From Gammaproteobacteria bacterium (GTDB taxonomy: Bacteria > Pseudomonadota > Gammaproteobacteria > UBA6429 > Thiohalophilaceae), in the NCBI GenBank assembly GCA_026197095.1, contig JAPHTF010000035.1:1-40985 (forward strand): a stretch of 40,985 nt of DNA, given 5' to 3'. The notes beneath the pieces are model-generated. The model had not been told where the DNA came from and did not search any database. It saw nothing but the letters and a program-made list of their open reading frames with translations. The position numbers and the translations under genes were made by a program. Shown piece by piece: positions 430 through 18,188 of the stretch (positions within the stretch are counted from its first letter, which is position 1; every line of letters starts with the position of its first letter).

Positions 430-431
430 CT

Positions 432-466: not shown

Positions 467-477
467 ATGGATAAATT

Positions 478-1650: not shown

Positions 1651-1680
1651 AATGAGCTTATTAGACATGGAAGACAACAA

Positions 1681-2151: not shown

Positions 2152-2228
2152 AATGAAAAACTTAACCTCATTAAATAGTATGCGGATCGCTAGTTGTGTT
2201 ATTCGCAATTAATACCAGGCTTTTAGAA

Positions 2229-2702: not shown

Positions 2703-2764
2703 GTGAGCTTTTCAATAACAGTCAAGCCCGTTGCTACGATAATTAACTTTGGTTATTTATAAAA

Positions 2765-3211
2765 ATGAAAATGATAAAAATAATTTTACTCTCTGTTGTC
2801 TTATCTGGCTTTGTATCTCAGGCTGTCACAGCATCAGAAACCACATACTACTTTGGGGTAAATGAGCAACATGATACAAATTTATATTTGGATGGGCAGT
2901 CAGCATGTAACGAGTTTCAAGCTTGGTATAAAGGCAATCACCCTAATAATTGTGGTTATTCTTCGCCTGTATATGAACCTGTTTATGGTGGCTGCACGTG
3001 GCACTATAATCTCGCTTGCTCAAGCACAGTAATGTATGAGGGTGTAAATATTTATCGCAAGACATGTGTTGATCCGCAAGTACCAAAATTAGTCTACACG
3101 ACTTACGCTCATTGGACTTGTTCCGAACCACCAGAGCCAGAGATTCCACCACCAGAACCCAAGTCATTCGGCGAACCTCCTTGTGATGTGAATGCACAAG
3201 TTGGTGATTGA
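2765..3211 (+). CDS. orphan Rhs head-like secreted protein 4
   Basis: A 148-residue protein with a typical signal peptide (KMIKIILLSVVL, cleavage near VTA-SETT, about residue 24). The mature part differs from proteins 2 and 3 and has seven cysteines before the tail. It then has a Pro/Glu linker (EPPEPEIPPPEPKS) and the shared tail GEPPCDVNAQVGD, then stop. The Rhs start codon follows within 12 bases (or overlaps, if TTG 3208 is used), so translation is probably coupled. Same family logic as proteins 1-3; function unknown. Confidence 0.78.
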   Translation: MKMIKIILLSVVLSGFVSQAVTASETTYYFGVNEQHDTNLYLDGQSACNEFQAWYKGNHPNNCGYSSPVYEPVYGGCTWHYNLACSSTVMYEGVNIYRKTCVDPQVPKLVYTTYAHWTCSEPPEPEIPPPEPKSFGEPPCDVNAQVGD

Positions 3212-3222
3212 AATTAATTAGA

Positions 3223-6200
3223 ATGAAAAAAATTAATAATGTATTAAGTGACAACTTTAATAATTCATATAAAAAAACGGTATTGAGCATGAAAAATATA
3301 AAATGGATGTATTCAACAATAATGTCAGTAATGATTTTAGTATTAATTGCTGTAACGGTAACTGCACAAGGGAATGTGATAAAACTTTCACCTTTTGTCG
3401 GTAATCCTATACATGCTGGAACGGGTAATAAGTTTCAAGTGGTAAAAGATTATTCGGGTACAACGTCTGGTACATCATTTACTCGGTACTATAATAGCCT
3501 TGATGATAAGGATATTGGTCTGGGAGTTGGCTGGCGACATACCTATTCAAAGTCACTTGACTTGAGTTCCACAACATCAATTTTGGCGACACGTTCTGAT
3601 GGTAAGGTATACACATTTACTCAGGATGCTTCAGGTAACTGGATTACTGATCCCGATACACCGGTAACATTAACGCAAACCGCAACAGGGTGGATGTATC
3701 AGCAAGGTGACAACGGTGAAAGTTATAATACACAAGGTCAGCTTGTATCGATTTCTGATAACAATGGGTTAAAAATCACTTTAACTTATGATGTTGATAA
3801 ATTACTGAACGTCACCGATCGTTTTTTACGTGAAACCTCATTTTCATATAATGCTGACAATAAGATCGAAACAGTCAATTTTACTGGAAATGAATCTGTT
3901 ACATATACATATGATGCAAATTCAAATCTCGTCAAAGCACTTTATAATGATGGCACGAGCAAACAATACCTTTATGAAGACACACGCTTCCCGAATGCGT
4001 TGACCGGCCGTGTTGATGAGAACAATAATCAAATTTCTAATTATGAATATGATGCTGAAGGGCGAGGTGTTCTGACAGAGAAAACAGGTGGAATAAATCG
4101 TTATACCTTAGTCTATAATGCCGATGGTACAACAACGGTTACCGATCCTTCTGGTGCTGCTCGTATATATCATTTTGAAACACTCCATGGTGTTACTAAG
4201 GTTGTAAGCATTGAGGGTGGGCCTTGTACAAGTTGCAGTGCTGATACTACGGCAGCTACTTATGATGCGAATGGATTTATTGCCAGCAAGACGGACTATA
4301 ATGGTAATGTTACATCTTATACTAATAATACTGCCGGATTACAAACTAGCCGTACTGAAGCCGTTGGTACACCACAAGAACGTACTATTTCAACAACCTG
4401 GAATACGACAACACGTCGTCCTTTAAAAATCACCGAGCCGGGTAAAATAACGGATTTTTCCTATGATACAAACGGTAATTTAGTACAGCGTACTGAAACT
4501 GATACGACAAACAGTAAGACTCACACGGTTAATTACACTTACAATAATTTAGGTCAGATTCTTACCGTTAATCAGGCCCGAACTGATGTCAATGACACCA
4601 CACTCTTTACTTATGATAGCCAAGGAAACCTTACTCAAGTCAATAATGCATTAGGCCATATTTATAAAATTACTTCGTATGATGCGGCAGGTCGCCCTTT
4701 AATTGTTGTTGATGCGAATGGGTTAACCACTACATTAAGTTATGATAGCCGTGGCCGATTAAAGTCACGCACATCAGGTAGTGAGACGACTGTTCTTGAA
4801 TATGATATAGCGGGTAACTTAAAAACCATTACGCTACCTAATACCAGTTCATTAACTTATGGGTACGACCTGGCGCAACGTTTGATTTCTGTCAATGATC
4901 ATCTGGGAAACACGATTATGTATACCCTTGATGCTGCAGGGAACAGAATAAAAGAAGACATTAAAGATGCGAGTGGTGTACTTACACGTACTCGTCAACA
5001 AACATATAACAGTTTAAATCAACTTGTAAGTATGGTTGGTGCGCAAAGCCAACAAACAAGCTTTGGCTATGATGGCAATGGTAATCGGATTAGTGTTACG
5101 GATGCAGCAACTAAAACTACGCAGTATGCATTTGATGCTTTAAATCGTGTTATTAGCGCAACCGATCCATTAGCAGGCAACTCTACCTATGGGTATGATG
5201 CTCAAGGCAATTTAACTTCTGTAAAAGATGCTAACGGTTCTACCACCTCATATACCTATGATGGGTTTGGCAATCGCACCAGTCAAATGAGTCAGGATAC
5301 TGGGACAACCACGTACGCGTATGATGAAGCGGGTAATGTACTTTCCGTCACCGATGCAAAAACTCAATTAACGACTTATCAATACGATGCGCTAAATCGT
5401 CTAACACAATCAACGTATGCTGATGGTACGACAGTTGTGTACAGCTACGATCAAGGCGTTAGCCAATTAGGTCGCTTAACCTCAGTTACGACAAATAGTC
5501 CAACTAATGGAGTCAGTAGCTTAGCGTATAGCTATGACTTGTTTGGACGAATGATAAGTAAAACTCAAGATGCGAATAATGTAAGTTTAACGACTACTTA
5601 TACCTATGATGCGCAAGGTCAACTCAGCAGCATGACATATCCATCAGGAAGTGTGGTGAGCTATAGTTATTTGAATGGCCAACTTAGTACAGTAAGTGTG
5701 AATGGCCAAACTGTACTCAATAATATCATCTACGAAGTTTTCGGAACTGTGAAAGGCTGGTCCTGGGGTAATGGTCGTGTTCATAGCCGTGGTTATGATT
5801 TAGATGGTCAGTTAATTTCACAATCACTGGCAAATGACACTCGTTTACTTGGCTACGACGTGAAAGGGAATATCACGAGTATTACTGATGCAACGGTGAA
5901 TCAACTCTTTGGCTATGATGAACTCAATCGTTTAGCAGCTGCGAATGATGCCAATATAACAACCGGCTTTAATCAAACTTTTAGCTATGATGCCAACGGT
6001 AACCGTTTATCAATAACGGATACTGCTGCAACAGACACATATGCTTACGATGCAACAAATACGAATCGTTTAACGTCAATTTCGGGAACCACCGCTAAAA
6101 ATTACCAATATGATGCTAATGGCAACATCATTCATGATGGGCTTCATGCCTATGACTACGATGCAACTAATCGCTTAATTGCTGTTGATGCTACACAAGC

Positions 6201-8289
6201 GCTTTACCAGCACAATGCGTTAGGCCAACGGATTAAAAAAGATGCGTCAGGTAAAATCACGCTATATGTTTATGACGAACAAGGGCAATTAATTGCAGAA
6301 GCGGATAATACGGGTTTTGTCACAAAAGAATATCTTTACCTTGGAACTCAACCTGTTGCTGTGCGTAATCTAAAACAGGTTACTACCCAGGTGGATAAGG
6401 TCATCGATAATACCGATGCCGGTGTCCTGCTAATTGGTAACTGGAAAAGCTCAACATCGGTAGCAGGTTTTGAAGGTGTTAATTATTCCGCTATTGCACC
6501 AAACGGACTACCTGCTTCAAGCACAATTTTTGATAATGGTTCCGCAGGATTTGGTACAACAGGTACGTGGAAAGCTTCTACATCAGTAGCAGGTTTTGAA
6601 GGTATTAACTATCAACATCATTATGCGAATGGTGCATCGCCAGATAGTATCATCATAGATAATTCTTCTGGCAGTGCAGTAGGGACATGGCCTGTTTCAA
6701 CATCTGTCCCAGGTTATGAAGCAACGAACTATCAACATCACAGTGCAGGTACAGGATTAAACACCTTTAGCTGGCCAGACGGAGTATCGAATACCGGTGA
6801 CTATAATGTTTATGCGAAGTGGACAGCGAACACAAACCGTGCCAGTAATGCCACGTATATGGTGATACATACTGCAGGTCATACACCCGTTACGGTAAAT
6901 CAACAAACACAAGGTGGAGAATGGGTATTGCTTGGTCAGTTTGCATTAGATGTAAATAGCCAGGTTACGCTCAGTGATAACGCCAATGGCTACGTGATTG
7001 CCGATAGTATTATGATTGAACCCGTTGGCGCAGAGCCAAATACGGCACGCTGGTCAATCGCACCAACAACAGCAGGTAATCACACGGTATATGCTAAATG
7101 GACGGCGCACAGTAATCGTGCAAGTAATGCAACATATACCGTTCATCATGTGGGCGGCACAACCTCCGTTGTTCAAAACCAGCAAACCAATGGTAGTCAA
7201 TGGGTGGCTCTCGGTGATTTTGAGCTTGACGCCAACAGTGCTGTGACATTAACCGACCAGGCAGATGGGTATGTTATTGCCGATGCGGTTGCAATTAACC
7301 CCGTGGGTGCCGCGCCTAACCAGGCAATCTGGCAGTTGAATGTTAATCCATCAAGCTACGACGTGTATGCTAAATGGACCGCACATGCCAATCGTGCAAG
7401 TAACGCCGCATTTAGCGTCAGTCATGTTGATGGCAATACGCCATTTACCATTAATCAACAAGCCAATGGCAGTCAATGGAATCTGATAGGTAACTTTAAC
7501 CTCGACTCAAGCAGTACAGTCAATCTTACTGATATTGCAGACGGCTATGTTATTGCTGATGCATTACGTGTCGTCGGGCAATACACGACCACAGAAGAAA
7601 CACTTCATTATGTTCATACTGATCATTTAGGTACGCCTAGAGTGATTACTGATAATAACAATACAGTGATCTGGTCCTGGTATAGTGATGCGTTTGGTAA
7701 GTCAGCGGCGAATGACGATCCTGACAATGATGGTATCAAGTTCACATTTAACTTACGTTTCGCGGGACAGTACTATGATGCCGAGACGGGTTTACACTAC
7801 AATTACTTTAGGGACTACGATCCATCAACCGGTCGTTACATGCAGTCTGACCCTATTGGTTTAAATGGTGGGTTGAATACGTATGGGTATGTTGATGGAA
7901 ATCCACTAAGTTTTGTAGATCCATATGGATTACTTACTGCAACTTTAACAGGTGGTGCAGAATCTACTCCTGGTAAAGGATTTGGTGTGTCAACAGGTTA
8001 TTATTTTGATGCGGATAACTTTAAATTTGGTGGTGTCGGAACCTCATCTGAAACTACAGGGTTTCTTGTAGACCTTGGTTTTTCGTTAGATTTTTATAAA
8101 GGCGAATCATCATGTCTCACAAAAGAAACATACACTAAAAAAATCTGTATAGCTGTCGTTTGCATAAACTGGCATACAGATAGTAACAATGATTTCTATG
8201 GGCTAGGATTCGGACTTTTCGCTGGGACTGAGACTGGTTTAGGTGGTGGTTTCTCTCATCATAAAAATGAAACTGAATTAGACCGATAA
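3223..8289 (+). CDS. full-length Rhs/YD-repeat polymorphic toxin
   Basis: About 1688 residues from ATG 3223. TTG 3208 and ATG 3289 are in-frame alternatives, and 3289 would place the hydrophobic signal (MSVMILVLIAVTVTA) nearest the N-terminus. Domains, numbered from TTG 3208: signal segment ~33-53; junction FVGNPIHAGTGNKFQ ~61-76; YD repeats ~80-1050 (many GYDxxG, YDANGN, YDALNR); golvesin-like beta repeats ~1058-1462; Rhs core with HTDHLGTPR at ~1472, TGRYMQSDPIGL, NTYGYVDGNPL, and DPYG at 1571-1574; variable tip ~1576-1693. The tip is Gly-rich (GVGTSSETTG, GFGLFAGTETG) with a short Cys-containing segment, and no nuclease motif is seen. The signal segment and lack of PAAR/VgrG suggest Sec-type rather than T6SS export. 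It is followed by a candidate immunity gene. The family is established; the toxin activity of this tip is not known. Confidence 0.9.
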   Translation: MKKINNVLSDNFNNSYKKTVLSMKNIKWMYSTIMSVMILVLIAVTVTAQGNVIKLSPFVGNPIHAGTGNKFQVVKDYSGTTSGTSFTRYYNSLDDKDIGLGVGWRHTYSKSLDLSSTTSILATRSDGKVYTFTQDASGNWITDPDTPVTLTQTATGWMYQQGDNGESYNTQGQLVSISDNNGLKITLTYDVDKLLNVTDRFLRETSFSYNADNKIETVNFTGNESVTYTYDANSNLVKALYNDGTSKQYLYEDTRFPNALTGRVDENNNQISNYEYDAEGRGVLTEKTGGINRYTLVYNADGTTTVTDPSGAARIYHFETLHGVTKVVSIEGGPCTSCSADTTAATYDANGFIASKTDYNGNVTSYTNNTAGLQTSRTEAVGTPQERTISTTWNTTTRRPLKITEPGKITDFSYDTNGNLVQRTETDTTNSKTHTVNYTYNNLGQILTVNQARTDVNDTTLFTYDSQGNLTQVNNALGHIYKITSYDAAGRPLIVVDANGLTTTLSYDSRGRLKSRTSGSETTVLEYDIAGNLKTITLPNTSSLTYGYDLAQRLISVNDHLGNTIMYTLDAAGNRIKEDIKDASGVLTRTRQQTYNSLNQLVSMVGAQSQQTSFGYDGNGNRISVTDAATKTTQYAFDALNRVISATDPLAGNSTYGYDAQGNLTSVKDANGSTTSYTYDGFGNRTSQMSQDTGTTTYAYDEAGNVLSVTDAKTQLTTYQYDALNRLTQSTYADGTTVVYSYDQGVSQLGRLTSVTTNSPTNGVSSLAYSYDLFGRMISKTQDANNVSLTTTYTYDAQGQLSSMTYPSGSVVSYSYLNGQLSTVSVNGQTVLNNIIYEVFGTVKGWSWGNGRVHSRGYDLDGQLISQSLANDTRLLGYDVKGNITSITDATVNQLFGYDELNRLAAANDANITTGFNQTFSYDANGNRLSITDTAATDTYAYDATNTNRLTSISGTTAKNYQYDANGNIIHDGLHAYDYDATNRLIAVDATQALYQHNALGQRIKKDASGKITLYVYDEQGQLIAEADNTGFVTKEYLYLGTQPVAVRNLKQVTTQVDKVIDNTDAGVLLIGNWKSSTSVAGFEGVNYSAIAPNGLPASSTIFDNGSAGFGTTGTWKASTSVAGFEGINYQHHYANGASPDSIIIDNSSGSAVGTWPVSTSVPGYEATNYQHHSAGTGLNTFSWPDGVSNTGDYNVYAKWTANTNRASNATYMVIHTAGHTPVTVNQQTQGGEWVLLGQFALDVNSQVTLSDNANGYVIADSIMIEPVGAEPNTARWSIAPTTAGNHTVYAKWTAHSNRASNATYTVHHVGGTTSVVQNQQTNGSQWVALGDFELDANSAVTLTDQADGYVIADAVAINPVGAAPNQAIWQLNVNPSSYDVYAKWTAHANRASNAAFSVSHVDGNTPFTINQQANGSQWNLIGNFNLDSSSTVNLTDIADGYVIADALRVVGQYTTTEETLHYVHTDHLGTPRVITDNNNTVIWSWYSDAFGKSAANDDPDNDGIKFTFNLRFAGQYYDAETGLHYNYFRDYDPSTGRYMQSDPIGLNGGLNTYGYVDGNPLSFVDPYGLLTATLTGGAESTPGKGFGVSTGYYFDADNFKFGGVGTSSETTGFLVDLGFSLDFYKGESSCLTKETYTKKICIAVVCINWHTDSNNDFYGLGFGLFAGTETGLGGGFSHHKNETELDR
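6379..7590 (+). repeat. golvesin-like repeat insert inside Rhs
   Basis: Inside the Rhs gene, about 1.2 kb encodes three copies of a W-x(2)-STSVxGxE-x-xNY unit (near 6450, 6570 and 6690). Three copies follow of a longer unit containing YAKWTAHSNRASNA, NQQ-x-NGSQW and DGYVIADA (near 6805, 7087 and 7360). These resemble golvesin/xanthan-lyase-like carbohydrate- or matrix-associated beta domains. They sit between the YD shell and the Rhs core. Confidence 0.75.
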
Positions 8290-8313
8290 ATGTAAAATAT
8301 TATAGGAAATAAT

Positions 8314-8610
8314 ATGACTGAATCTACTGTATATAAAAATATAATCAAACGTAGAAACTATTGGCTATTGTTTGTATTAATTATACCAATATTATTAATT
8401 CTTCTATCTGCATATGTTCATGAAGATAAATTATTTATAATCATTGGGCTATATGTGGTTATATCTGTAGTTTGGACATTATTCCTCTATTATTCATCAT
8501 CATGTCCTAAGTGTAACGGACTATTTTTTGGTCCTATGAAGAATATATATGTAATACATAAATTCTTTATGAATAACAAATGTAATAATTGTGGCTATAA
8601 GTCTAAATAA
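8314..8610 (+). CDS. candidate immunity protein 1 (membrane, zinc ribbon)
   Basis: A 98-residue protein starting 24 bases after the Rhs stop, with a GGA-containing leader (ATAGGAAATAATATG). Two membrane segments lie at ~19-33 and ~41-60. A C-terminal zinc ribbon has CPKCN and CNNCG, four cysteines in two CxxC pairs. Its position directly behind the fused toxin tip and in front of a terminator makes it the presumed immunity gene for tip 1. A membrane-located immunity protein would fit a toxin acting at the inner membrane. The function is inferred from context only. Confidence 0.7.
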   Translation: MTESTVYKNIIKRRNYWLLFVLIIPILLILLSAYVHEDKLFIIIGLYVVISVVWTLFLYYSSSCPKCNGLFFGPMKNIYVIHKFFMNNKCNNCGYKSK

Positions 8611-8625
8611 AGTAAATTGCGCTAG

Positions 8626-8840
8626 GAAATTTTATACGGCCTAAATCAAACGAGGCCGTTTTTCTTTCTAAACCACCGTCACCACTACCTAATTATGATG
8701 TAACAGTATGATTCATATAGCCTGATTCAGTTTACAATTACTTCAGGGACTACGATCCGAGTACTGGACGATATGTACAGTCAGATCCGATAGGTCTAGC
8801 GGGTGGTTTGAATACATATGGATATGTTGATGCTAATCCA
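8626..8840 (+). repeat. cassette direct repeat, copy A
   Basis: Copy A consists of a terminator hairpin, a ~65-bp spacer containing TATGATTCATA (8707-8717), and then Rhs-core 3' sequence from GTTTACAATTAC (8730) encoding YNYFRDYDPSTGRY, SDPIGL and NTYGYV. A TAG at 8718-8720 closes the core frame upstream, so the core piece is displaced, not expressed as part of Rhs. Similar blocks are at 10175, 11450 and 14200. Confidence 0.9.
8636..8665 (+). terminator. terminator ending the Rhs-immunity 1 unit
   Basis: ACGGCCT (8636-8642) pairs with AGGCCGT (8653-8659) around a 10-base loop, followed by TTTTTCTTTC. It is part of repeat copy A, so every cassette ends with its own terminator. Confidence 0.85.
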
Positions 8841-9299
8841 CTTTATTGGATTGATTTGTTTGGTTTGTCAGGTTCTGTTCCAGGTCGTATACCACAAGGT
8901 TATAATCCAAATGATACAAGAGGTGGGTTTGATGGAAGTGGAAATAGCTTAATTTTTCATCCAGATTATTACGATCCTAGTGGAGCTTCCGAAATCCTAT
9001 TAACTGGAGTGGCAACAGCAGCTACGGGTTTTTCTGGTACAGGCATTTTACAGTGCACTGCTAAAGCAATTGGCCCATCTAAGCAATGGTTAAGGTTTGG
9101 GCCAAGTTATAGTAAGGCTCTAGGAGAGAAAATTGCTTTTTCTATGAGGTGGGGAGCCTCTCCTGCGAAAAATGGTAAATATATAAATCAAATTGGTAGT
9201 AAGAATTTGCAAAAGTTTAACCAGTGGTTGCGGGGGAAAAAACTTCCAGGCACTAGTTGGCGTACTAAAGATTCAGGTCACTTGCATTTAAGAAGGTAA
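8808..9299 (+). CDS. orphan Rhs tip 2 (core fragment plus toxin domain)
   Basis: The frame is open from 8721, just after a TAG. The first usable start is TTG 8808, inside the core (GGLNTYGYVDANPL). The frame has the Rhs core end YDPSTGRYVQSDPIGL, a DLFGL boundary where DPxG is usual, a Gly-rich linker, and a basic C-terminal domain. That domain contains GASPAKNGKYINQ, KNLQKFNQWLRGKK, and a terminal WR-x-KD-x-GHLHLRR. The His pair near the end could be catalytic in a nuclease-type tip, but this is inference. It lacks secretion, YD and shell regions, so it is silent unless recombined into the full Rhs. Immunity gene 2 starts 3 bases after its stop. Confidence 0.8.
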   Translation: MNTYGYVDANPLYWIDLFGLSGSVPGRIPQGYNPNDTRGGFDGSGNSLIFHPDYYDPSGASEILLTGVATAATGFSGTGILQCTAKAIGPSKQWLRFGPSYSKALGEKIAFSMRWGASPAKNGKYINQIGSKNLQKFNQWLRGKKLPGTSWRTKDSGHLHLRR

Positions 9300-9302
9300 A
9301 GC

Positions 9303-9872
9303 ATGGGAAGACTATTATTAAAATCAATAGGTGATTTTGGAAAAAGTCCAAATACAGAGAGTGAGTATGATAATCAGGCAACTGAAGAACGGATAGGTTC
9401 AGTTTTAGAAAGAATTACTGCTGTACTGAACTCAAAGGGAAATGAAAAAGCTTGTTACATTTTTGGAATGGGGGCTCAGCCAAAGTCTGTATATAATAAT
9501 CTTAAAGCTGTTGATGGAGTAGAAGTAATTTGGTCAGGGTCATTATTACCTAAAGTTATAAGATTTATGGGGGGGATAGTGGCTAGCCATGCTGGTTTAG
9601 TAAAGATAACTAACCCTGATATGATTACTGATACCTTTGATAAGTTAACAGAATTATCTATGGCTGGCATTTATTTATTCTCTCCTGATTTTGAGAGTAA
9701 ATTTGTAAAAGAAGTAATTTCAAACCCAGCTCCATTTTCATATGATTTTATAATTAAGGAAGACAAGGGTTACTTTCTTTATGTGGTTGATGCAGATAAT
9801 CCAGAATCAGAAACAGGTATTTATGAAATAGTTTCATATGGTAAGTCAGCTCCTGAGTCCCTTAAAATTTGA
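9303..9872 (+). CDS. candidate immunity protein 2
   Basis: A 189-residue soluble-looking protein whose ATG lies 3 bases after the tip 2 stop, the tight spacing usual for toxin-immunity pairs. An AAGAAGG box precedes it inside the toxin gene. There is no signal peptide or membrane helix. I do not recognise a named immunity family. A cytoplasmic immunity protein would fit a nuclease-like tip 2. Confidence 0.7.
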   Translation: MGRLLLKSIGDFGKSPNTESEYDNQATEERIGSVLERITAVLNSKGNEKACYIFGMGAQPKSVYNNLKAVDGVEVIWSGSLLPKVIRFMGGIVASHAGLVKITNPDMITDTFDKLTELSMAGIYLFSPDFESKFVKEVISNPAPFSYDFIIKEDKGYFLYVVDADNPESETGIYEIVSYGKSAPESLKI

Positions 9873-9998
9873 CAGCAAGTAACCAATAGATAAGCTTGTT
9901 TGTATAAATGAGACAGATGACTAAATTTTAATCATTTTTTAGTTTTAATAACAAATTTGGCTAGGTGGTCTCAAAAACAAAAACAAGAGATGATAAAT

Positions 9999-10157
9999 AT
10001 GAGTGATGAACATCCATATAAAGCTTTTGAAACAAATGAAAATTGGAAGATAGTTGAAAAAGCAATTGCAGATCTTGTTGATAATCAAGATTTAAAAGAG
10101 ATGACTGATAGAAAATATATTGTTGGATATATTTGTAAGCTTTTATCAGAAAGCTAG
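9999..10157 (+). CDS. small acidic conserved-type protein in cassette 2
   Basis: A 52-residue protein from ATG 9999, preferred because AAGAGA lies about 8 bases upstream; TTG 9957 and ATG 9990 are in-frame alternatives. It is mostly helical and acidic, with MSDEHPYKAFE, KAIADLVDNQDL and a terminal YIVGYICKLL. It sits between immunity gene 2 and the cassette terminator, so it may be a second immunity gene or a leftover of another cassette. Function unknown. Confidence 0.55.
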   Translation: MSDEHPYKAFETNENWKIVEKAIADLVDNQDLKEMTDRKYIVGYICKLLSES

Positions 10158-10174
10158 TTCAAAATCATATCTGG

Positions 10175-10385
10175 GAATTTTTACACGCCTCACAGCCATG
10201 AGGCCTCTTTCCGTCTTAAACCCCTGTCACCACTACATAATTATGATGTAACAGTATGAATCATATAGCCTGATTCAGTTTACAATTACTTCAGGGACTA
10301 TGATCCATCAACAGGTAGATATGTTCAATCTGATCCGATTGGGTTAGATGGTGGGTTGAATACTTATGGGTATGTATACCAGAGT
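10175..10385 (+). repeat. cassette direct repeat, copy B
   Basis: It has the same organisation as copy A: hairpin, spacer with TATGAATCATA (10255-10265), TAG at 10266-10268, then GTTTACAATTACTTCAGGG and the core end. The palindrome differs from A only at its centre base. The terminator half is the most diverged of the four copies. Confidence 0.88.
10187..10212 (+). terminator. terminator of cassette 2
   Basis: GCCTCA (10187-10192) pairs with TGAGGC (10199-10204), then CTCTTTCC. The stem is good, but the T-run is interrupted, so termination may be weaker than at copies A, C and D. Confidence 0.6.
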
Positions 10386-10811
10386 CCTTTAAATTATGTC
10401 GATCCACTGGGATTGTATGATGGATCTGGATTATTTTATGGTTATGGTGCTGGTCAAGGAATAAATGCCGAAATAAATGCATTTAAAGATCCCGAGAACT
10501 ATAAACAAGCGGCTAAAGATTTTGGTAAGATTGCTGCAGGTACAGCAACCGTCTACTTCCCTATGACGAGAGCGGCTGGACTAGCAGGTGGAGCTCTAGC
10601 AAAAGGTGCTCAACAATGTAAAAAAGCTGTTGATAAGATTGGGAAGAAGGAATTATGTGCTGGTGTTTTAGCTATTTTCTGTAAAGATATTAATAATAAA
10701 GACATTGATGCTGGTGCTGAGGCTCTAAAAGCATTACGAACGAACCCAGAAATAAGCAAAAGTATCAATATCGAAAATAGAATTAGACCTTTTATTACAA
10801 ATACGAAATAA
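10356..10811 (+). CDS. orphan Rhs tip 3 (core fragment plus toxin domain)
   Basis: The frame is open from 10269 and the first start is TTG 10356. It carries YDPSTGRY, SDPIGLDGGLNTYGYV and a canonical DPLG boundary. About 129 variable residues follow: a Gly-rich stretch (GLFYGYGAGQG), a small hydrophobic Ala/Gly segment (AAGLAGGALAKG) and a charged tail ending RIRPFITNTK. No catalytic motif is recognised. The Sel1-repeat gene 8 bases downstream is its presumed immunity partner. It has no export or shell regions of its own. Confidence 0.78.
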   Translation: MNTYGYVYQSPLNYVDPLGLYDGSGLFYGYGAGQGINAEINAFKDPENYKQAAKDFGKIAAGTATVYFPMTRAAGLAGGALAKGAQQCKKAVDKIGKKELCAGVLAIFCKDINNKDIDAGAEALKALRTNPEISKSINIENRIRPFITNTK

Positions 10812-10818
10812 AAAATAT

Positions 10819-11415
10819 ATGAGTTTGGATAACAGCAATAATACTATTGATAATCTTGTAGAAAGAGCTGAGGCTGCGCTTCGTAAATCTGATGGTGCAG
10901 GAGCGCTTTATCTTTATAAAGCGTTAGTTAAAAAAGGATATAAGCATGCCTATTGTGAAATAGGTAATATATATGAGTTAGGCGTAGGTGAGATAGATAT
11001 TGATTATAAACAAGCTCATGATTGGTATATGAAGTCTGTAGATGACGGAGATGATCCAATCGGTGCATATTGTTTAGGTCGTATTTATTATCTGGGTAGA
11101 GGAAAATCTATCGACTATGAAAAAGCTGAGTGGTACTACAAACTTGCAGCAGACTCAGGTGTCACAATAGCACAACTAATGTTAGGACGAATCTATAATC
11201 TAGGTTTAGGGAATACAAGAGATATTGATAAAGCAAGACAATCCTTTCAAAAAGCTGCTAAGGAAGGATATGTTTATGCATTAAAGAATCTTGGAAGCTT
11301 AGAAATATCATGTGGAAACATATTAAAAGGAGTTTTGCTTTATGTGAGAGGTATCTGGAGTCATCTTATGATTTATATAAATAACAAACGTGATCCTAGA
11401 ATACGTAGTGCTTAA
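10819..11415 (+). CDS. candidate immunity protein 3, Sel1-like repeats
   Basis: A 198-residue protein with Sel1-like (TPR-type) helical repeats: AHDWYMKSVDDGD, AYCLGRIYYLGRG, AEWYYKLAADSG, AQLMLGRIYNLGLG, and ARQSFQKAAKEGY. There is no signal peptide. The C-terminal ~45 residues lose the repeat and are hydrophobic (GVLLYVRGIWSHLMIYI). It starts 8 bases after tip 3. Sel1-repeat proteins serve as protein-binding scaffolds and have been found as immunity proteins in other toxin systems; here the role rests on position. Confidence 0.75.
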   Translation: MSLDNSNNTIDNLVERAEAALRKSDGAGALYLYKALVKKGYKHAYCEIGNIYELGVGEIDIDYKQAHDWYMKSVDDGDDPIGAYCLGRIYYLGRGKSIDYEKAEWYYKLAADSGVTIAQLMLGRIYNLGLGNTRDIDKARQSFQKAAKEGYVYALKNLGSLEISCGNILKGVLLYVRGIWSHLMIYINNKRDPRIRSA

Positions 11416-11449
11416 AGTAATTTACGAATTTTGAAAACTGCATCAAGAA

Positions 11450-11660
11450 ATTTTCTCACGGCCTCACTCAACCGAGGCCATTTTTTCTTTCTAAAGCACC
11501 ATCACCACTACATAATCATGATGTAATAGTATGATTCATGTAGTCTCATTCAGTTTACAATTACTTCAGGGACTATGATCCATCAACGGGTAGATATGTG
11601 CAGTCTGATCCGATTGGTTTAGCAGGTGGATTAAATACGTATGGGTATGTTGGCGGGAAT
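11450..11660 (+). repeat. cassette direct repeat, copy C
   Basis: Terminator, spacer with TATGATTCATG (11530-11540), TAG at 11541-11543, then the core end identical in layout to copy B (GGGACTATGATCCATCAAC). It introduces tip 4. Confidence 0.9.
11458..11488 (+). terminator. terminator of cassette 3
   Basis: GGCCTC (11460-11465) pairs with GAGGCC (11474-11479), followed by ATTTTTTCTTT. Confidence 0.82.
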
Positions 11661-12038
11661 CCATTACTTTATACTGATATATTTGGTCTTGAAGCTAATG
11701 CTACTAGTTTGTTTCCTGGTCCTAAAGCATGTGGATATTACGAAAAACAATGTAAAGATAGCTGTGGTGAGGATAAATACGCCTGTGAAGCAAAGCAATG
11801 TTGTGAGTCTTTTGGAGACAACTTTACATCTAACTGCACACGAAAATGTTTAATTGATCAAGATATTGGAGCTTGTTCAAAATTCACTGGCGAAAAAAGA
11901 AATAACTGTAGAAAAAAAGCGCATTATTTTTGTTATTCAGTTTGTTTTAATATACCAGATGCAGTGGGAGGAGGCTTTGGACTTTTACCACCAGCTTCAT
12001 GTAAAGGCGCAGCAGACTCAATCGGAGGTATGTGGTGA
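11598..12038 (+). CDS. orphan Rhs tip 4, cysteine-rich toxin domain
   Basis: The frame is open from 11544; GTG 11598 (VQSDPIGLAGG) is the first start. After the core end NTYGYVGGNPL and a DIFGL boundary comes a compact tip with 13 cysteines (KACGYYEKQC, KDSCGEDKYAC, QCCES, NCTRKC, FCYSVC) and a Gly-rich end closing in GGMW. Such density suggests a disulfide-bonded domain folded outside the cytoplasm, acting in the target envelope. Its partner at 12035 is an integral membrane protein, which is consistent. No family recognised. Confidence 0.75.
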   Translation: MQSDPIGLAGGLNTYGYVGGNPLLYTDIFGLEANATSLFPGPKACGYYEKQCKDSCGEDKYACEAKQCCESFGDNFTSNCTRKCLIDQDIGACSKFTGEKRNNCRKKAHYFCYSVCFNIPDAVGGGFGLLPPASCKGAADSIGGMW

Positions 12039-12421
12039 TTATTAATGTAGATAAATTATTACCAATAGGTATATTTTCTAGCTTAGGTGCGCCTATTGCT
12101 TATGTGACTTATATCATAGTTATGAAAATACATAATGGAAGTGAATTTGATGTTTCACTAATACTTGCTGCGTTGATAAGTTCCGCGTTATTTTCGTTTT
12201 TGACTACTTTATCGTTGGTTTTTATTACTATTGTAATATCGAAATTGATTAAGAAAACAAATTTAAATATTTTTAAACTATTAATATTTTATTTTACGTT
12301 AATTTTGATTGCGGTCGCAATTATATATGATTTAAATGTTACATATATATTTGGATTCCTTATGTTGCCAAATTTCATAATTTTTCTATTTTTGGCTCAA
12401 AAGAGTATTAAGAAATCTTAA
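12035..12421 (+). CDS. candidate immunity protein 4, four-helix membrane protein
   Basis: About 128 residues. GTG 12035 (or GTG 12032) follows a GGAGG box at 12024-12028, and the gene overlaps the tip 4 stop, so translation is coupled. Four hydrophobic segments can be seen (ending near AYVTYIIVM, LILAALISSALF, LVFITIVI, and IFYFTLILIAVAIIY, with a further FLMLPNFIIFLFL). There are no cysteines. The presumed role is protecting the producer membrane against tip 4. This is inferred from overlap and topology. Confidence 0.72.
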   Translation: MIINVDKLLPIGIFSSLGAPIAYVTYIIVMKIHNGSEFDVSLILAALISSALFSFLTTLSLVFITIVISKLIKKTNLNIFKLLIFYFTLILIAVAIIYDLNVTYIFGFLMLPNFIIFLFLAQKSIKKS

Positions 12422-12486
12422 AGTAAAATATGAAAAGTACTTTTTGTAATTAATATTTATTTCAGTTGCATCTATTGGCGAACTAG
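12422..12486. other. truncated cassette junction before the transposon
   Basis: The terminator-spacer-core block expected after an immunity gene is missing here. Only AT-rich sequence lies between immunity 4 and the transposon end, so the junction was deleted, probably during or after transposon insertion. Confidence 0.6.
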
Positions 12487-13421
12487 AGGGCCAAGTCTTA
12501 CAAATTACATTTGTCGGGATGTTTGGTAATAAAGTAAACTAGAAATACATATATTTATCACAAGGAGGTGATGAATGGCTCGACAACTCAGAATAGAATA
12601 CGTTGGTGCACTTTACCATATAACATCTCGAGGTAATGCTCAGGAAGCTATCTACCGAAATGATGAAGATCGAACTGAATTTCTCTCACTATTGAATAAA
12701 ACATGCACTCGCTTTAATTGGTATTGCCATGCCTATTGCCTAATGGATAATCATTATCATTTATTGATTGAAACAAATACTTTAAGTTTATCAAAGGGAA
12801 TGAAATACCTTAATGGCACATACACTCAATTTTTCAATCGTTCTCACAAGCGAGTTGAACACGTATATCAAGGTCGCTTCAAAGGAATACTGATTGAAAA
12901 AGAAAGTTATTTACTTGAGTTAGCTCGTTATATTGTATTAAACCCTGTAAGGGCTAGAATGGTCAGGACAGCGAAAGACTGGCCATGGAGTAGTTATCGT
13001 GCGACTGCAGGAATGTGCCAGACACATGATTGCCTGACATTTTAGCGGCCTTTGGTAAACAACGGAAGCAGGCACAACAGTGCTATCGTGATTTTATCCA
13101 GCAAGGTAAAAATCAACCTTCACCCTGGGAAAAATTAAAAAATCAAATTTATCTAGGTTCATCAGCGTTTGTAGAAGACATGTAATGTAAACTAGATCCA
13201 GAACAATCATTAAAAGATATTCCAAAGTTACAAAAACAAGGTGCAATGAAATCACTTGATTATTATCAGCAACGGTATTCTTCACAACGTGAAGCCATGG
13301 CAAGAGCTTATCTTGCGGGCCACTATACTTTGAAAGAAGTCGGCCGACATTTTGGGGTAAGTTATGCAACTGTGAGTCGCTCAGTTAAGAAAATGGAATG
13401 TGATATGTAAGACTTGACCCT
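12487..13421 (+). mobile_element. RAYT-type (Y1 transposase) element with inverted ends
   Basis: AGGGCCAAGTCTTAC (12487-12501) and GTAAGACTTGACCCT (13407-13421) are inverted repeats with 14 of 15 positions matching. They bracket a decayed single-strand transposase gene that ends at the right repeat. No target duplication is evident. The right side continues directly into GTGGACCCT repeated twice and then a truncated Rhs core, showing rearrangement of the cassette. Confidence 0.75.
12575..13410 (+). pseudogene. RAYT/TnpA-REP-like Y1 transposase, frameshifted
   Basis: It starts at ATG 12575 behind a near-perfect AAGGAGGTGATG box. MARQLRIEYVGALYHITSRG is the family's standard N-terminus. The HUH motif is NHYHLLIET and the catalytic Tyr lies in LELARYIVLNPVRA. 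The reading frame ends early at 13045 (CLTF). The continuation is in another frame from about 13040 (ILAAFGKQRKQAQQCY), is interrupted by TAA at 13183-13185, and then encodes an HTH-like end (LKEVGRHFGVSYATVSRSVK) to TAA 13410. At least two disabling changes are present, so it is inactive as written. Confidence 0.88.
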
Positions 13422-13882
13422 GTGGACCCTGTGGACCCTATGGGTATGTTGGGGGCAATCCTCTTTCTTATAGTGATTCATTAGGTTTACTTTATGATCC
13501 AGGTGGTACTTTTACTCGTACTGCTGCAACTCAAGTTACAACTAAGGCAGGGTTGGCTGGACTTGGTCCTATTGGTCTAGGTATTGGTGTTGGGATTACT
13601 GTTGCCGAAGCTTTATTGCCAGGTTATACATCTGTTGTCGATATACCTGATTTACCGGCAGCTAATGATGATCAGATGTGTGAAAATACATCTTCTGAAG
13701 ATGATGACGATTGCAAGCAGCTATTGAAGGATATGGTATTGTTGTTTAAATATGTTGCTTCACAAGTAAAGCAAAATGGTAGAGCTAATTCACTAATGCT
13801 TATAAATTCATATAACAAACAAGCTGCAAGTGCATGTAAAGTATGCCCAGGAATATGTGCAGCAATTCCAAGGTTTGATTGA
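13418..13882 (+). pseudogene. orphan Rhs tip 5, 5' end replaced by transposon junction
   Basis: The frame opens at 13418 after a TGA in the transposon end. The core is cut to YGYVGGNPLSYSDSLGL (usual DPxG changed to DSLG); everything before NTYG is lost. The tip has a Gly-rich hydrophobic segment (GLGPIGLGIGVGITVAEALL), an acidic part (SSEDDDDC) and a terminal CKVCPGICAAIPRFD. There is no ATG in frame; TTG 13553 is the first start. It may still be translated weakly, but it cannot recombine through the core as long as copies A-C can. Confidence 0.7.
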
Positions 13883-13883
13883 T

Positions 13884-14168
13884 ATGGCTGAGAAAAGAAC
13901 AGTACTTCAATCATTATGCGATTTGACTGGAAAAATAACAGGCGAATCTGTAATTGGTGATCAGAAAGTCTCAAGTATTTCGCATATAGAAGATGTAGAT
14001 AAAATAATATTAACTCTACAAGATGTTACGAATAATAATTATGGGAAAGATTTATTAAAATGGGTTGAATGGTATATGCCTCATTGTAGTGGTGATAGAG
14101 AAAAAATGATATTGCAGTTTATAAAAGTAAAAGGACAGCTGATTAAAATTGATAATAATAGTGATTGA
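13884..14168 (+). CDS. candidate immunity protein 5
   Basis: A 94-residue soluble protein starting at ATG 13884, one base after the tip 5 stop. An upstream in-frame start at 13830 is possible but lies inside the toxin gene. It begins MAEKRTVLQSLCDLTGKI and has a central LQDVTNNNYGKDLLKWVEWY. Family not recognised. It looks intact even though its tip gene is damaged, as expected if immunity is selected longer than toxin. Confidence 0.65.
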   Translation: MAEKRTVLQSLCDLTGKITGESVIGDQKVSSISHIEDVDKIILTLQDVTNNNYGKDLLKWVEWYMPHCSGDREKMILQFIKVKGQLIKIDNNSD

Positions 14169-14199
14169 TTAATTGTACTTTTAATATTTATAACTGCAT

Positions 14200-14334
14200 C
14201 AGAAAATATTTACACGGCTTCAACTTTACGAGGCCGTTTTTCTTTCTAAAACACCGCCACCACTACCTAATCATGATGTAACAGTATGATTCATATAGCC
14301 TGATTCAGTTTACAATTACTTCAGGGAATATGAT
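14200..14334 (+). repeat. cassette direct repeat, copy D (truncated)
   Basis: It has hairpin, spacer with TATGATTCATA (14285-14295), then GTTTACAATTACTTCAGGGA. Identity to copies A-C stops at TATGAT (14334), so the TGRY...NTYGYV part of the core is missing. Confidence 0.88.
14214..14245 (+). terminator. terminator of cassette 5
   Basis: ACGGCTT (14214-14220) pairs with AGGCCGT (14231-14237), with one G-T pair, followed by TTTTTCTTTC. Confidence 0.8.
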
Positions 14335-14477
14335 GTGGAAATACAGCTTTAAAGGAACTTAAAGTTGTTCAAATTTTAGCCAGACATCCTGGTGCACATT
14401 TAATTGAAGTGGAATCCGATAAAACTAACTCATCAAGCTCACTGAAAAGGCGTAGGAGGGGGATAAAGTCATGCTAA
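14334..14477 (+). pseudogene. remnant of toxin tip 6
   Basis: Directly after the break in copy D, a frame of 47 codons encodes GNTALKELKVVQILARHPG, ending in a basic stretch (SLKRRRRGIKSC) before TAA 14475. It looks like the C-terminal end of another tip whose core and N-terminal part were deleted. Its stop overlaps the start of the decayed gene at 14471, as in toxin-immunity pairs. Confidence 0.45.
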
Positions 14478-14611
14478 AAATCCCTTCCCAAGCATAAATC
14501 AGCGTTGAAGACTTCCATGTACATGCTCTGAATACTCTCAAGTTACTTCAGTAATATGGCATTCCAGTGAAATATCCACCAACATTTAAATTACCAACAA
14601 ATCAAGAATAA
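14471..14611 (+). pseudogene. decayed immunity gene 6
   Basis: ATG 14471 follows a strong AGGAGGGG box (14454-14461) and overlaps the tip 6 stop. The frame runs to TAA 14609-14611 (46 codons) but contains TAA at 14495 and 14552. The protein-like parts are MLKIPSQA, ISVEDFHVHALNTLKLLQ and YGIPVKYPPTFKLPTNQE. This looks like a short immunity gene inactivated by two nonsense changes. Confidence 0.45.
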
Positions 14612-14727
14612 GTTATTATATTTCAATAAGATAGCAGTATTCGTAAGTTTTTTTATATTAAAATGAGACCTTATTTTTTCTCCATTTTTTGCTTAATTCA
14701 ATTACTATGGTGTGGTTAGTGATGTAG
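14612..14727. other. right end of the island, no gene seen
   Basis: AT-rich sequence between the last cassette remnant and attR. No integrase, excisionase or inverted repeat pair is seen. Confidence 0.5.
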
Positions 14728-14744
14728 CCCCTTGGGGACGCCAT
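14728..14744 (+). repeat. attR-like direct repeat (tRNA-Glu tail)
   Basis: An isolated 17-base copy of the tRNA-Glu 3' end, identical to 413-429. The bases before it do not form the rest of a tRNA. It is followed within 8 bases by a terminator of the kind expected behind a tRNA gene. Confidence 0.75.
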
Positions 14745-14751
14745 ATAATAG

Positions 14752-14777
14752 AAAAAGATCCGAAAGGGTCTTTTTTT
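14752..14777 (+). terminator. original tRNA-operon terminator, now beyond attR
   Basis: AGATCC (14756-14761), loop GAAA, GGGTCT (14766-14771, one G-T pair), then a T-run. Its distance from the tRNA tail (8 bases) suggests it ended tRNA-Glu before the island inserted. Confidence 0.82.
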
Positions 14778-14934
14778 ATGCCTGTTTATTTTGTAATTAA
14801 TATCTAAATATTGAACACAGTTATCAATTTTCAATACTGGTGCAATTCAGGTAAGCTTGCCTGATGCTATGGTGCTAAAATGCGATACCACGGTTGTAAA
14901 TGGAAAGACAAAGCTATATTTCAGGGGATAGAAA

Positions 14935-15108
14935 ATGCTGGTATTAGAACGAAAGTCTGGTGAATCGATTGTCATAACAAATGGTGATGATGTAATCGAA
15001 ATTAAGGTCGATAAGTACAAAAAGGATGCTATTAAATTAGTATTTGATGCTCCTAAAAATTACCTCATATTACGTAAAGAACTCACAGAAAAAGATAAAC
15101 TTTTATAA
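14935..15108 (+). CDS. csrA: divergent CsrA-family RNA-binding regulator
   Basis: A 57-residue protein. [14 protein letters not shown] aligns with the CsrA N-terminus (MLILTRRVGE), and [12 protein letters not shown] aligns with the APKEVSVHREE region, keeping the RNA-binding Arg. The middle is shorter and more divergent than in housekeeping CsrA, so this is probably a paralogue. CsrA proteins bind GGA motifs near ribosome binding sites and control translation. The gene's own leader holds CAGGGGATAG just upstream of ATG, a possible self-binding site. A coupled DUF481 gene starts 2 bases after its stop. Confidence 0.85.
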
Positions 15109-15110
15109 CC

Positions 15111-15911
15111 GTGTTGTTTAAAAATAATTATATTTCTATATCCCACAAATTTAGCCTGTTAGCTATTTTTTTTCTATTTTTAATCTATTCTTCGTTCGCA
15201 TCCGCCATTGTTAATATGGATGGTTTACACTTTGATAATAATCAAAATACATTTACTGCAGCGCTTGATTTAAGCGTGAGTGGTTCTTCTGGTAACAGCG
15301 ATACGAGTAAAGCGGCTTTAAATACCCAGGTGAACTGGATTTCTGATAAATCAATTAATTTAGCACTCTTAGGTTATCAATATGGTGAAAGTAATAATGT
15401 ACGCAGTGTAAATAAAGCTTTTGTTCATTATCGCTATATTCGTCAAATAAATAATGCTTTTGATTGGGAAGTTTTTGGACAATTGGAAAAGAATGAGTTT
15501 ACCCGGTTGTCATATCGTGGTTTATTAGGTACGGGTATGCGGTATTCACTGGCAAAGTCAGATCAGCACCGTGCTTTTTTTGGCTTCGGAGGATTCCATG
15601 TAAAAGAAGAAACTGAAGTTACAGCGGGGCTGACCGATGATGGAGTAGAAGAATATACACGAGCTAACTTTTACCTTTTATCAAAATATAATGTTAAGCC
15701 AGCGATCAGCTTTTCCAATGCTATTTATTATCAACCACGATTTAATACCATGTCGGATTATCGTGCATTATTAGAGTCAAAATTTGATTTTAAAATTAAT
15801 GAAGATTTAAGTTTTAGATTAAGTTTAGATATTGAACATGATAGTGACCCATCGCAGTCTATTAAAGAAACTGATATAAGCTATATGACAGGATTAATAG
15901 TTAATTTTTAG
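15111..15911 (+). CDS. DUF481-type outer membrane barrel protein
   Basis: A 266-residue protein from GTG 15111 (TTG 15114 is an alternative). It has a signal peptide with a long hydrophobic core and SASA-type cleavage near residue 27. The mature part alternates polar and apolar residues in beta strands (LDLSVSGSSGNSDTSKAAL, FDWEVFGQLEKNEFTRLSYR, YSLAKSDQHRAFFGFG) and ends with an aromatic residue in IVNF, as outer-membrane barrels do. It resembles the YdiY/DUF481 family, whose substrate is unknown. There is no Shine-Dalgarno box and the gap to the csrA-like stop is 2 bases, so translation is likely coupled. Confidence 0.82.
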   Translation: MLFKNNYISISHKFSLLAIFFLFLIYSSFASAIVNMDGLHFDNNQNTFTAALDLSVSGSSGNSDTSKAALNTQVNWISDKSINLALLGYQYGESNNVRSVNKAFVHYRYIRQINNAFDWEVFGQLEKNEFTRLSYRGLLGTGMRYSLAKSDQHRAFFGFGGFHVKEETEVTAGLTDDGVEEYTRANFYLLSKYNVKPAISFSNAIYYQPRFNTMSDYRALLESKFDFKINEDLSFRLSLDIEHDSDPSQSIKETDISYMTGLIVNF

Positions 15912-16214
15912 TAGGTATGTAAACCTGATTAAAATTAGTTAACCCTTCTATTAAATATAACATTGGTTAACGTTTAATATGAGTACATTTGTGATAGAAA
16001 TCATTATAATGTTGCTGATAAAAATAATGGTATTAAGTTACCTACAAATTCTTTTCCTTAATACTATTGAATTTACGCTATCTCTCAATTAAAGAGCTGG
16101 GTAAAAATGTGGTTTTTAAAAACATTTTTAAATACTAGAATGATTGGGATAACAAAAACTCTTGGTAGAATATAGTTTATACATAAAAAATTTTTTATTC
16201 AGTGAGATCTATAA
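15912..16214. other. intergenic region with a 9-bp inverted repeat
   Basis: No gene. TAAAAATGT (16102-16110) is repeated inverted as ACATTTTTA (16122-16130) around an 11-base loop, about 85 bases before the kinase start. It could be an operator or a weak terminator for the csrA-DUF481 unit. No convincing promoter could be chosen. Confidence 0.45.
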
Positions 16215-18188
16215 TTGACAAAAAAAATCTCTAAAGTTCTTCCCGAAAATAAGATCTCGCATCAAAATTCCAGACCATCATTGACTGAATTTGATGCGAT
16301 TATTAATTCAATACCTGACGTAATAATTAGATTTAACCTGTCCGGTAAAGTCGTTTGGTGGAATAAAAATTTAGATGATGTTGTTTTATTGTCAAATGAA
16401 GAATTACTGTCTTGTAATTTTAGTGATTTGTTTGAATCATGTTGCGGTGCATCAACAGAAATTATTATAGACAAAACTATTAGCGATGGTTATTCAGAAG
16501 TTGATACATTGTTGTACACTTCTGATGGTGATAAAAGATATCATGTGAAATGCACTCTTGTTGATGGTGTATCAGATAAAGAAATTCTTGTGGTTGGCCG
16601 AGATGTGCATGAACGGGCACAAATGTCTGATGCACTTAAGCAAAGCCAGAATCAGTTACAAAAACTTATTGATGCACTTCCTTTCCTTGTTTTTCTAATT
16701 TCAACTGAAAATAAATACTTGTTAGCGAATAAAACATTTTGTGATTTTGTTGGTTTGCCTCAGGAAGAAATTATTGGTTTTCACCATAATGATATTTTGA
16801 ACAGTGAATTAGTTAAATGTCTGAATCGCGATACTGATAAAGTTTTATCCGATAAAAAATCCGTTCATTGTGAAGGAACAATAGAGCTTCACAGAGGCAA
16901 TGTAAGTTTATCGGTAGATAAGTTCCCCATGTTTGATGATGAAGGTAACATGTATGCTATTTGTGGTGTTGTTGAAGATGTCACAAACCAGGTTCAATTG
17001 CAGCGGCAATTACAGCAAACTCAAAAAATGGAAGCTATTGGGCAGCTAACCGGAGGTATTGCTCATGATTTTAATAACGTACTTGCATCTATTATGGGGT
17101 ATACCAGCTTAACTAAAAGACAGGTAGCACAGTTTAATGACAGCAAAGTAGAAGCTTACCTTGGACAAATTACACGAGCCGGTGAAAGAGCACGGGACCT
17201 TGTGCAGCAATTATTAGCATTTAGCAGGGGCGATATTGGTGGTTTACAAGTATTACAACCTGAACCATTAGCAAAAGAAGCTATCAAAATGTTAACTTCA
17301 TTAATACCGAGTAGCATTAATCTTAATCTTAAAATAAGAAGTAATAATGTAAAACATTATATTGAAGTTGATCCCGTTCAGTTTCATCAAAGCCTGATGA
17401 ACCTGGTGATTAATGCTAAGGACTCTATAACTGGGGGAACAGGTAAGATTGATGTGTCCTTAAAGTATTTACCCAATGTAAAACATATGTGTGATTCCTG
17501 CCATCTTGGTTTTTCTGGAAAATTTATTCAGCTATCTGTTTCTGATACGGGAGAAGGAATTAAAAAAGAAATATTAGGAAGAATATTTGATCCGTTTTTC
17601 ACAACAAAGGCAATTGGTAAAGGCTCTGGTATGGGGCTTTCAATGCTTCACGGTATTGTACACAGTAGTGGTGGTCATATTGTTGTTAAGTCAAAGAACT
17701 CCCCATCTGAGTCAGGTACTACAATTCAGATTTTTTTCCCTGAAGTTAAATCAAAAGAAATAAAAGAAAATACTGCTCAATACATTGTAGAAAAAGTCAA
17801 AAATATAAATACAGATAAAACAATCCTGATCATTGATGATGAAGTCATGATTACTCAATACCTGAGTGATTTGTTAAAAAGGGATGGATATAAAGTCATT
17901 GCCTTTAATAATCCGGTTAAAGGCTTAGACTATTTTTTAGATAATAATAAGAGTATTGATATCATTATCTCCGATCAAACAATGCCAGGATTAACTGGTC
18001 TTGAATTAGCCAGAACAATAAGAGAAAAAAACTATGATGTTCCGGTAATCTTATGCACCGGTTACAGTGATTTTGCTGTTGATATTCAAAATACTGATAC
18101 GGGAGTTGATGTTTTTATGAGTAAACCGTTTGATAATAATTTGCTTCTGCAGCACATTTCACAATTAACAACACTGTATGAAAATTAG
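16215..18188 (+). CDS. PAS-PAS hybrid histidine kinase with receiver
   Basis: A 657-residue protein read from TTG 16215 (GTGAG about 9 bases upstream; no nearby ATG keeps the N-terminus). PAS 1 at ~25-130, PAS 2 at ~145-262 (VVEDVTNQ), HisKA with GQLTGGIAHDFNNV and phospho-acceptor His284. HATPase boxes are LMNLVINAKD, SDTGEGI and GSGMGLSMLHGI. The C-terminal receiver has IIDDE, phospho-acceptor Asp587 (SDQTMPG) and the MSKPF lysine. No transmembrane segment is obvious, so it probably senses a cytoplasmic signal. It has no DNA-binding output and there is no adjacent response regulator, so its target must lie elsewhere. Confidence 0.9.
   Translation: MTKKISKVLPENKISHQNSRPSLTEFDAIINSIPDVIIRFNLSGKVVWWNKNLDDVVLLSNEELLSCNFSDLFESCCGASTEIIIDKTISDGYSEVDTLLYTSDGDKRYHVKCTLVDGVSDKEILVVGRDVHERAQMSDALKQSQNQLQKLIDALPFLVFLISTENKYLLANKTFCDFVGLPQEEIIGFHHNDILNSELVKCLNRDTDKVLSDKKSVHCEGTIELHRGNVSLSVDKFPMFDDEGNMYAICGVVEDVTNQVQLQRQLQQTQKMEAIGQLTGGIAHDFNNVLASIMGYTSLTKRQVAQFNDSKVEAYLGQITRAGERARDLVQQLLAFSRGDIGGLQVLQPEPLAKEAIKMLTSLIPSSINLNLKIRSNNVKHYIEVDPVQFHQSLMNLVINAKDSITGGTGKIDVSLKYLPNVKHMCDSCHLGFSGKFIQLSVSDTGEGIKKEILGRIFDPFFTTKAIGKGSGMGLSMLHGIVHSSGGHIVVKSKNSPSESGTTIQIFFPEVKSKEIKENTAQYIVEKVKNINTDKTILIIDDEVMITQYLSDLLKRDGYKVIAFNNPVKGLDYFLDNNKSIDIIISDQTMPGLTGLELARTIREKNYDVPVILCTGYSDFAVDIQNTDTGVDVFMSKPFDNNLLLQHISQLTTLYEN

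Follow-up and report, generated by a model that had tools for sequence, protein, structure and literature searches.

The window (the whole stretch of 40,985 nucleotides that was analysed) is contig 107 of a 3.12-Mb draft genome of 201 contigs. It contains csrA2, encoding an accessory CsrA protein of 57 amino acids (14935-15108, + strand), and, immediately downstream, a gene for a DUF481 outer membrane protein (OMP) of 266 amino acids (15111-15911, + strand). The csrA2 stop codon is followed by CC and then by the GTG of the DUF481 reading frame. This arrangement had been pointed out in a preliminary description of the locus, and the sequence confirmed it: the OMP gene lies 2 bases after the csrA-like frame and starts with GTG, with no Shine-Dalgarno-like purine stretch upstream in the window. 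The downstream neighbour, located outside the conserved pair, encodes a PAS-PAS-histidine kinase-receiver hybrid (HK; 16215-18188, + strand).

A terminator-like hairpin of 14 pairs, only 3 of them G-C (14748-14779, + strand), separates the csrA2 unit from the upstream DNA, and the same GATCC...GGGTC/T-run was found after tRNA-Glu in three relatives of the genus (G001, G003 and G005). An island of roughly 14.3 kb (413-14744), ending just before the csrA2 unit, is flanked by tRNA-Glu (353-428) and a 17-base copy of the tRNA 3' end (14728-14744); in the same three relatives, the tRNA 3' end is directly followed by what in the window lies beyond the right copy. The island carries genes for a 1693-aa Rhs-repeat/Golvesin_C protein, a Sel1 protein and an IS200-type transposase. 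Between the hairpin and csrA2, a conserved block, TTGAA..AGTTATCAATTTTCAA (14810-14849, + strand), with 22 of 40 columns invariant in six species (edges set once the alignment had been seen), looks like an operator or part of a promoter, and by eye it faintly resembles a Fur box. A possible extended -10 element, TGCTAAAAT, without the last neighbour context, was noted by eye at 14874-14881 (+ strand). The promoter and terminator scans, covering window positions 14700-16250, L008 and L005, returned a promoter at the homologous position only in G007 (L005:1124-1151) and nothing at this site in the window or in G001. The numbers of promoter-like sites were close to those obtained for shuffled DNA (11 versus 8.3, 7 versus 7.5 and 9 versus 7.2), and from these scans we take only the G007 hit, as a hint.

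The accessory CsrA and its partner protein

CsrA2 matched the CsrA/RsmA family profile PF02599 with 60.4 bits (cut-off 27) but, at 49.5 bits, fell short of the cut-off of 70.1 for the NCBIfam csrA equivalog, which agrees with the earlier view of it as a short divergent CsrA. The preliminary description had held that its regulatory proposal would fail if this were the only csrA of the organism. A canonical csrA was found downstream of an aspartokinase gene; its product scored 100.5 bits against the same equivalog and was 28% identical to CsrA2. Three CsrA-family genes of the genome exceeded the Pfam cut-off, the third encoding a CsrA-HTH fusion of 148 amino acids (L003:1243-1689; G000:C66:2611-3054). 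This protein combines a CsrA domain carrying an insertion (38.7 bits) with a Cro/CI-type HTH (23.7 bits), both above the Pfam cut-offs, and is possibly an RNA- and DNA-binding regulator. Its gene adjoins an HTH gene and a gene for a TacA-like antitoxin with a GNAT gene, and it was detected at E <= 1e-8 in two of the 274 sampled genomes of the class, its own included.

The excerpted account of CsrA (PMC7652899) names L4 and R44 as critical RNA-contact residues. L4, R6 and R47 (corresponding to E. coli R44) were invariant in the CsrA2 alignment, and L4 and R47 were kept in the csrA2 products of five species as well as in canonical CsrA. The csrA2 proteins of the relatives were 68-77% identical to the window copy, with dN/dS values of 0.04-0.23 in seven of ten species pairs (three were saturated), and the gene is under purifying selection. 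The dN/dS values, like the intergenic distances given below, were obtained with the exclusion of G005, in which the frame is interrupted, and one inserted codon of the G003 gene was skipped to maintain register. In G005, an in-frame stop follows after 40 residues and the remaining match continues in another frame, while the OMP gene is intact; this may reflect a fault in the assembly or a genuine break. The CsrA2 monomer model (mean pLDDT 57.1) was too weak for an assessment of the fold.

Accessory Rsm/CsrA copies have been described in Pseudomonas, plasmids and phages as divergent proteins that keep R44 (PMC7366521, as excerpted). The genome studied here resembles these cases in having several CsrA proteins, divergent and with R44 kept, and csrA2 differs from the cases covered by that excerpt in being confined to one genus in our sample, lying outside the island and lacking relatives among viral contigs. 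We considered a mobile origin of csrA2 and rejected it, given its position outside the adjacent island and the lack of relatives in the viral contigs searched. The matches to csrA2 in phage (two) and plasmid (four) records were 41.5-48% identical.

The OMP aligned with PF04338 (DUF481) over profile positions 2-210 of 210 with 113.6 bits (cut-off 21.1), and its N-terminus is signal-peptide-like. The best model, too weak to rely on, comprised one N-terminal helix and 13 strands at a mean pLDDT of 58.1, the other four models being near 30. The protein has 266 amino acids in five of the six species and is 63-66% identical to the window copy; the start codon is GTG in five species and ATG in G004. 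The dN/dS values were 0.06-0.15 in nine of ten species pairs (one was saturated), G004 being left out of this comparison owing to its different length. Both proteins, CsrA2 and the OMP, were thus shown to be under selection.

Joint inheritance of csrA2 and the DUF481 gene

The two genes were adjacent in six of the eight genomes of the genus, including that of the window. Among the 58 genomes searched, these six alone contained relatives of csrA2 at E <= 1e-18, and DUF481 relatives occurred in 16 of the 58, six of these within the genus. A profile built from five csrA2 proteins recognised all six pair-bearing genomes at E <= 1e-27 and gave weaker matches in five of the 32 other genomes of the family, which are other accessory CsrA genes; a csrA2-type gene (E <= 1e-20) was absent from these 32 genomes, the best value being 1.6e-10. 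A contig search with csrA2 retrieved five relatives, all from uncultured gammaproteobacterial MAGs (one labelled Ectothiorhodospiraceae), and a further three distant CsrA genes with 37-41% identity.

In the remaining two genomes of the genus, G002 and G006, genome searches found neither gene. The absence is less sure here because the two drafts are fragmented, with about 500 contigs (88% complete) in G002 and 540 (94% complete) in G006, and the G006 contig starts inside HK, with the sequence upstream of HK out of view. G002 retains the RR-HK-TetR-OEP run without the pair within the 6.5 kb read. The opposite was observed in G007, where the pair is present and both RR and HK are missing between it and TetR: HK had no match anywhere in that genome at E <= 1e-60. 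The window lacks RR, its best matches there being receiver domains at 32% or less. The pair thus remains linked while its neighbours change, and csrA2 and the DUF481 gene are a two-gene module that is inherited jointly.

Between a small membrane gene and csrA2, G004 carries genes for a phosphonate-binding protein and an HK-receiver-Hpt protein (L055:381-3590). This second insertion upstream of csrA2 is different from the window island, and the csrA2 leader is intact there too. The possibility that DUF481 genes generally travel with csrA was rejected: at 11 DUF481 loci outside the pair, no CsrA-like reading frame was seen upstream by eye (L014, cut at a contig end, could not be judged), and in seven family genomes of other genera with a DUF481 relative, no CsrA match was present on the same contig. 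We found no description of a CsrA and DUF481 pair in the open-licence literature searched.

Candidate CsrA sites in the csrA2 leader

The csrA2 leader contains two GGA motifs that were invariant in all six species. The upstream one (14902-14904, at -33) lies in a conserved block at 14896-14915 (+ strand), and the second (14926-14928, at -9) in the Shine-Dalgarno region of csrA2 (14920-14934, + strand). The upstream motif is located at -33 in the window and G004, at -35 in G007 and at -37 in G001, G003 and G005, the two motifs starting 24, 26 or 28 bases apart. In the block, whose edges were set after the alignment had been seen, 14 of 20 columns were invariant, compared to 5 of 46 in the adjoining segment 14850-14895; in the Shine-Dalgarno region 12 of 15 were. 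The leader motif occurred exactly at one position of the genome only. The leader of canonical csrA contains several GGA motifs as well, of which five were counted by eye within 170 bases. According to the excerpt of PMC7652899, a CsrA dimer bridges sites 10-63 bases apart, with an optimum above 18, and the SELEX consensus is RUACARGGAUGU, all ligands having contained ACA and GGA. The spacing of the two motifs lies in the optimal part of this range and suits a bridging dimer. The layout known from CsrA-autoregulated mRNAs, with conserved GGA sites at a bridging distance and one of them in the Shine-Dalgarno sequence, was found in all six species.

The preliminary description had singled out CAGGGGATAG, which is indeed present ahead of the csrA2 start (14922-14931), as the CsrA site. 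This element, mainly the Shine-Dalgarno sequence of csrA2, is without the ACA that belongs to the SELEX consensus. A better candidate is the upstream block, not mentioned earlier, which reads ACAUGGA in four of the six species and AAAUGGA in the other two, the window and G004. Moreover, leaders with two GGA motifs, one in the Shine-Dalgarno sequence and the other at a bridging distance, were counted in 6 of 29 window genes that we chose from the list of open reading frames, csrA2 included, so CAGGGGATAG in a single sequence is not significant alone. Such a leader in one genome is unremarkable, and conservation across species is what counts.

The same count speaks for an alternative explanation, in which the pair is an ordinary operon with no Csr control of its own and the Shine-Dalgarno GGA is a plain ribosome site, which would be conserved anyway; the upstream block would then belong to a transcription start, to a tiny reading frame in the leader or to a small-RNA site. 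CsrA prefers a GGA within a hairpin loop, and no hairpin enclosing the upstream GGA was conserved in single-sequence folds. A possible tiny reading frame (14901-14945) begins with an AUG before the upstream GGA (AUG GAN AGA ...) and runs for 5-15 codons; it was seen by eye in all six species, has no Shine-Dalgarno sequence, and is a possible other cause of the conservation of the block. Against this explanation, both GGA motifs were invariant in six of six species beside 46 columns that retain only 5. Nor was a conserved GGA outside the Shine-Dalgarno sequence found in any of the seven other genes of the locus, OEP included (three to seven species each), a control in which start positions were partly pattern-set and the RR alignment was poor. 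We regard this explanation, taken as a whole, as unlikely.

Possible control of the pair

The arrangement is most readily explained by one operon with a leader bound by a CsrA-family dimer, for which CsrA2 would be the simplest binder, and we adopt this reading tentatively, at a little less than an even chance. We infer that csrA2 and the DUF481 gene probably share one mRNA, and that a CsrA-family dimer, most simply CsrA2, would hold the upstream GGA and bridge to the Shine-Dalgarno GGA. The bridging dimer would block csrA2 translation and lower the level of the whole message, and the supply of CsrA2 and the OMP from the shared mRNA would thereby be self-limited. In the window species only, the OMP start 2 bases past the csrA2 stop might add stop-start translational coupling. 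The likelihoods that we attach to this reading and to its three alternatives overlap.

Coupling had been deduced earlier from the 2-base gap and the missing Shine-Dalgarno sequence, and neither observation bears it out across the genus. The distance between csrA2 and the OMP gene was 64, 57, 87 and 58 bases in G007, G001, G004 and G003, respectively, in contrast to 2 in the window, and near-adjacency of stop and start was thus not conserved. Since the relatives have 57-87 bases here, tight translational coupling is not a conserved part of the arrangement; the 2-base join is a derived state peculiar to the window species, and stop-start coupling is possible there only. These four relatives have no Shine-Dalgarno sequence at the OMP start either, so that its absence is no pointer to coupling; it is ancestral and coupling does not explain it. 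Sequestration of the OMP start was also rejected, as in the predicted folds it was no less accessible (0.39-0.58) than the csrA2 start (0.28-0.55). Given these gaps and this accessibility, nothing points to a dependence of OMP translation on csrA2.

These data also bear on the proposal that most members of the genus transcribe and translate the OMP gene independently, from an AU-rich start needing no Shine-Dalgarno sequence, and that the 2-base join is a deletion of no regulatory meaning. The wide gaps, the GTG conserved outside G004 and the shared lack of a Shine-Dalgarno sequence speak for it, as does the neighbouring HK gene, which likewise starts without a strong Shine-Dalgarno sequence. 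However, the scan, weak in that its counts were near those of shuffled DNA, found no promoter-like site on the + strand between the two genes of G001 or of G007, or within the window csrA2, and the two genes are jointly present and jointly absent. Independent expression and a meaningless deletion both seem quite improbable to us. If the G005 interruption is not an assembly error, it shows that the OMP can be kept without a full CsrA2.

The chief alternative to autoregulation by CsrA2 is that canonical CsrA controls the pair. The leader would then be a target of the global regulator, which would silence both the paralogue and the OMP. Canonical csrA is present in the genome, with a product that passes the equivalog cut-off, and the leader sites partly match the canonical consensus. 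There is a precedent as well: Legionella csrR is reportedly both a CsrA paralogue and a direct CsrA target (Abbott et al. 2015). As far as that system is represented here, it resembles ours in an accessory CsrA message with apparent CsrA sites and a canonical CsrA in the genome, and differs in that csrA2 is paired with a DUF481 OMP and is only a candidate target. On the other hand, CsrA2 retains the RNA-contact residues, and the data do not separate the two binders. Sole control by the global regulator is rather unlikely in our judgement, and CsrA2 autoregulation and canonical CsrA control could both hold.

Better-studied Csr targets provide partial models for a self-limiting csrA2 leader. In E. 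coli, CsrA autoregulates csrA, which has four sites and five promoters, and represses glgC through a high-affinity upstream site and a Shine-Dalgarno site (PMC7652899, as excerpted). Like the leaders of these mRNAs, that of csrA2 is short and has at least two GGA sites, of which the last overlaps the Shine-Dalgarno sequence, at a distance that a dimer could bridge. Unlike E. coli csrA in that excerpt, it has two GGA sites and no conserved hairpin; unlike both E. coli mRNAs, it precedes a gene for an accessory protein with an OMP gene downstream. For the 2-base join of the window, the model is iraD, which CsrA controls through coupling to a short upstream reading frame (PMC5574718, as excerpted). 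In both cases, CsrA sites located where an upstream frame begins could govern the downstream gene by stop-start coupling; in the iraD system, as that excerpt presents it, the stop codon overlaps the start codon and the upstream frame does not encode a regulator, whereas for csrA2 and the OMP gene coupling is a possibility in a single species.

The RNA-level circuit proposed in the preliminary description thus stands in part. The presence of a canonical csrA, the joint inheritance, the retained L4, R6 and R47 and the two GGA motifs speak in its favour; the role given to CAGGGGATAG and the coupling were not upheld. Autoregulation of csrA2 is plausible, and the conserved pair together with the leader sites suggests local self-limiting control of an envelope protein. 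It is doubtful, although conceivable, that CsrA2 serves as a local Csr switch dedicated to one envelope protein, in a cassette standing outside the global Csr network. That the cassette acts as a self-limiting RNA-level homeostat, CsrA2 and the OMP it doses being gained and lost together, seems comparably speculative.

To our knowledge, accessory CsrA copies are common and their targets mostly unknown. If canonical CsrA were the binder, the pair would be an ordinary branch of the global network. A small conserved cassette with its likely target adjoining would allow a direct test, using two proteins and a single leader RNA, of whether paralogues have private targets and, if the proposed control is true, would give a first functional lead for a DUF481 protein.
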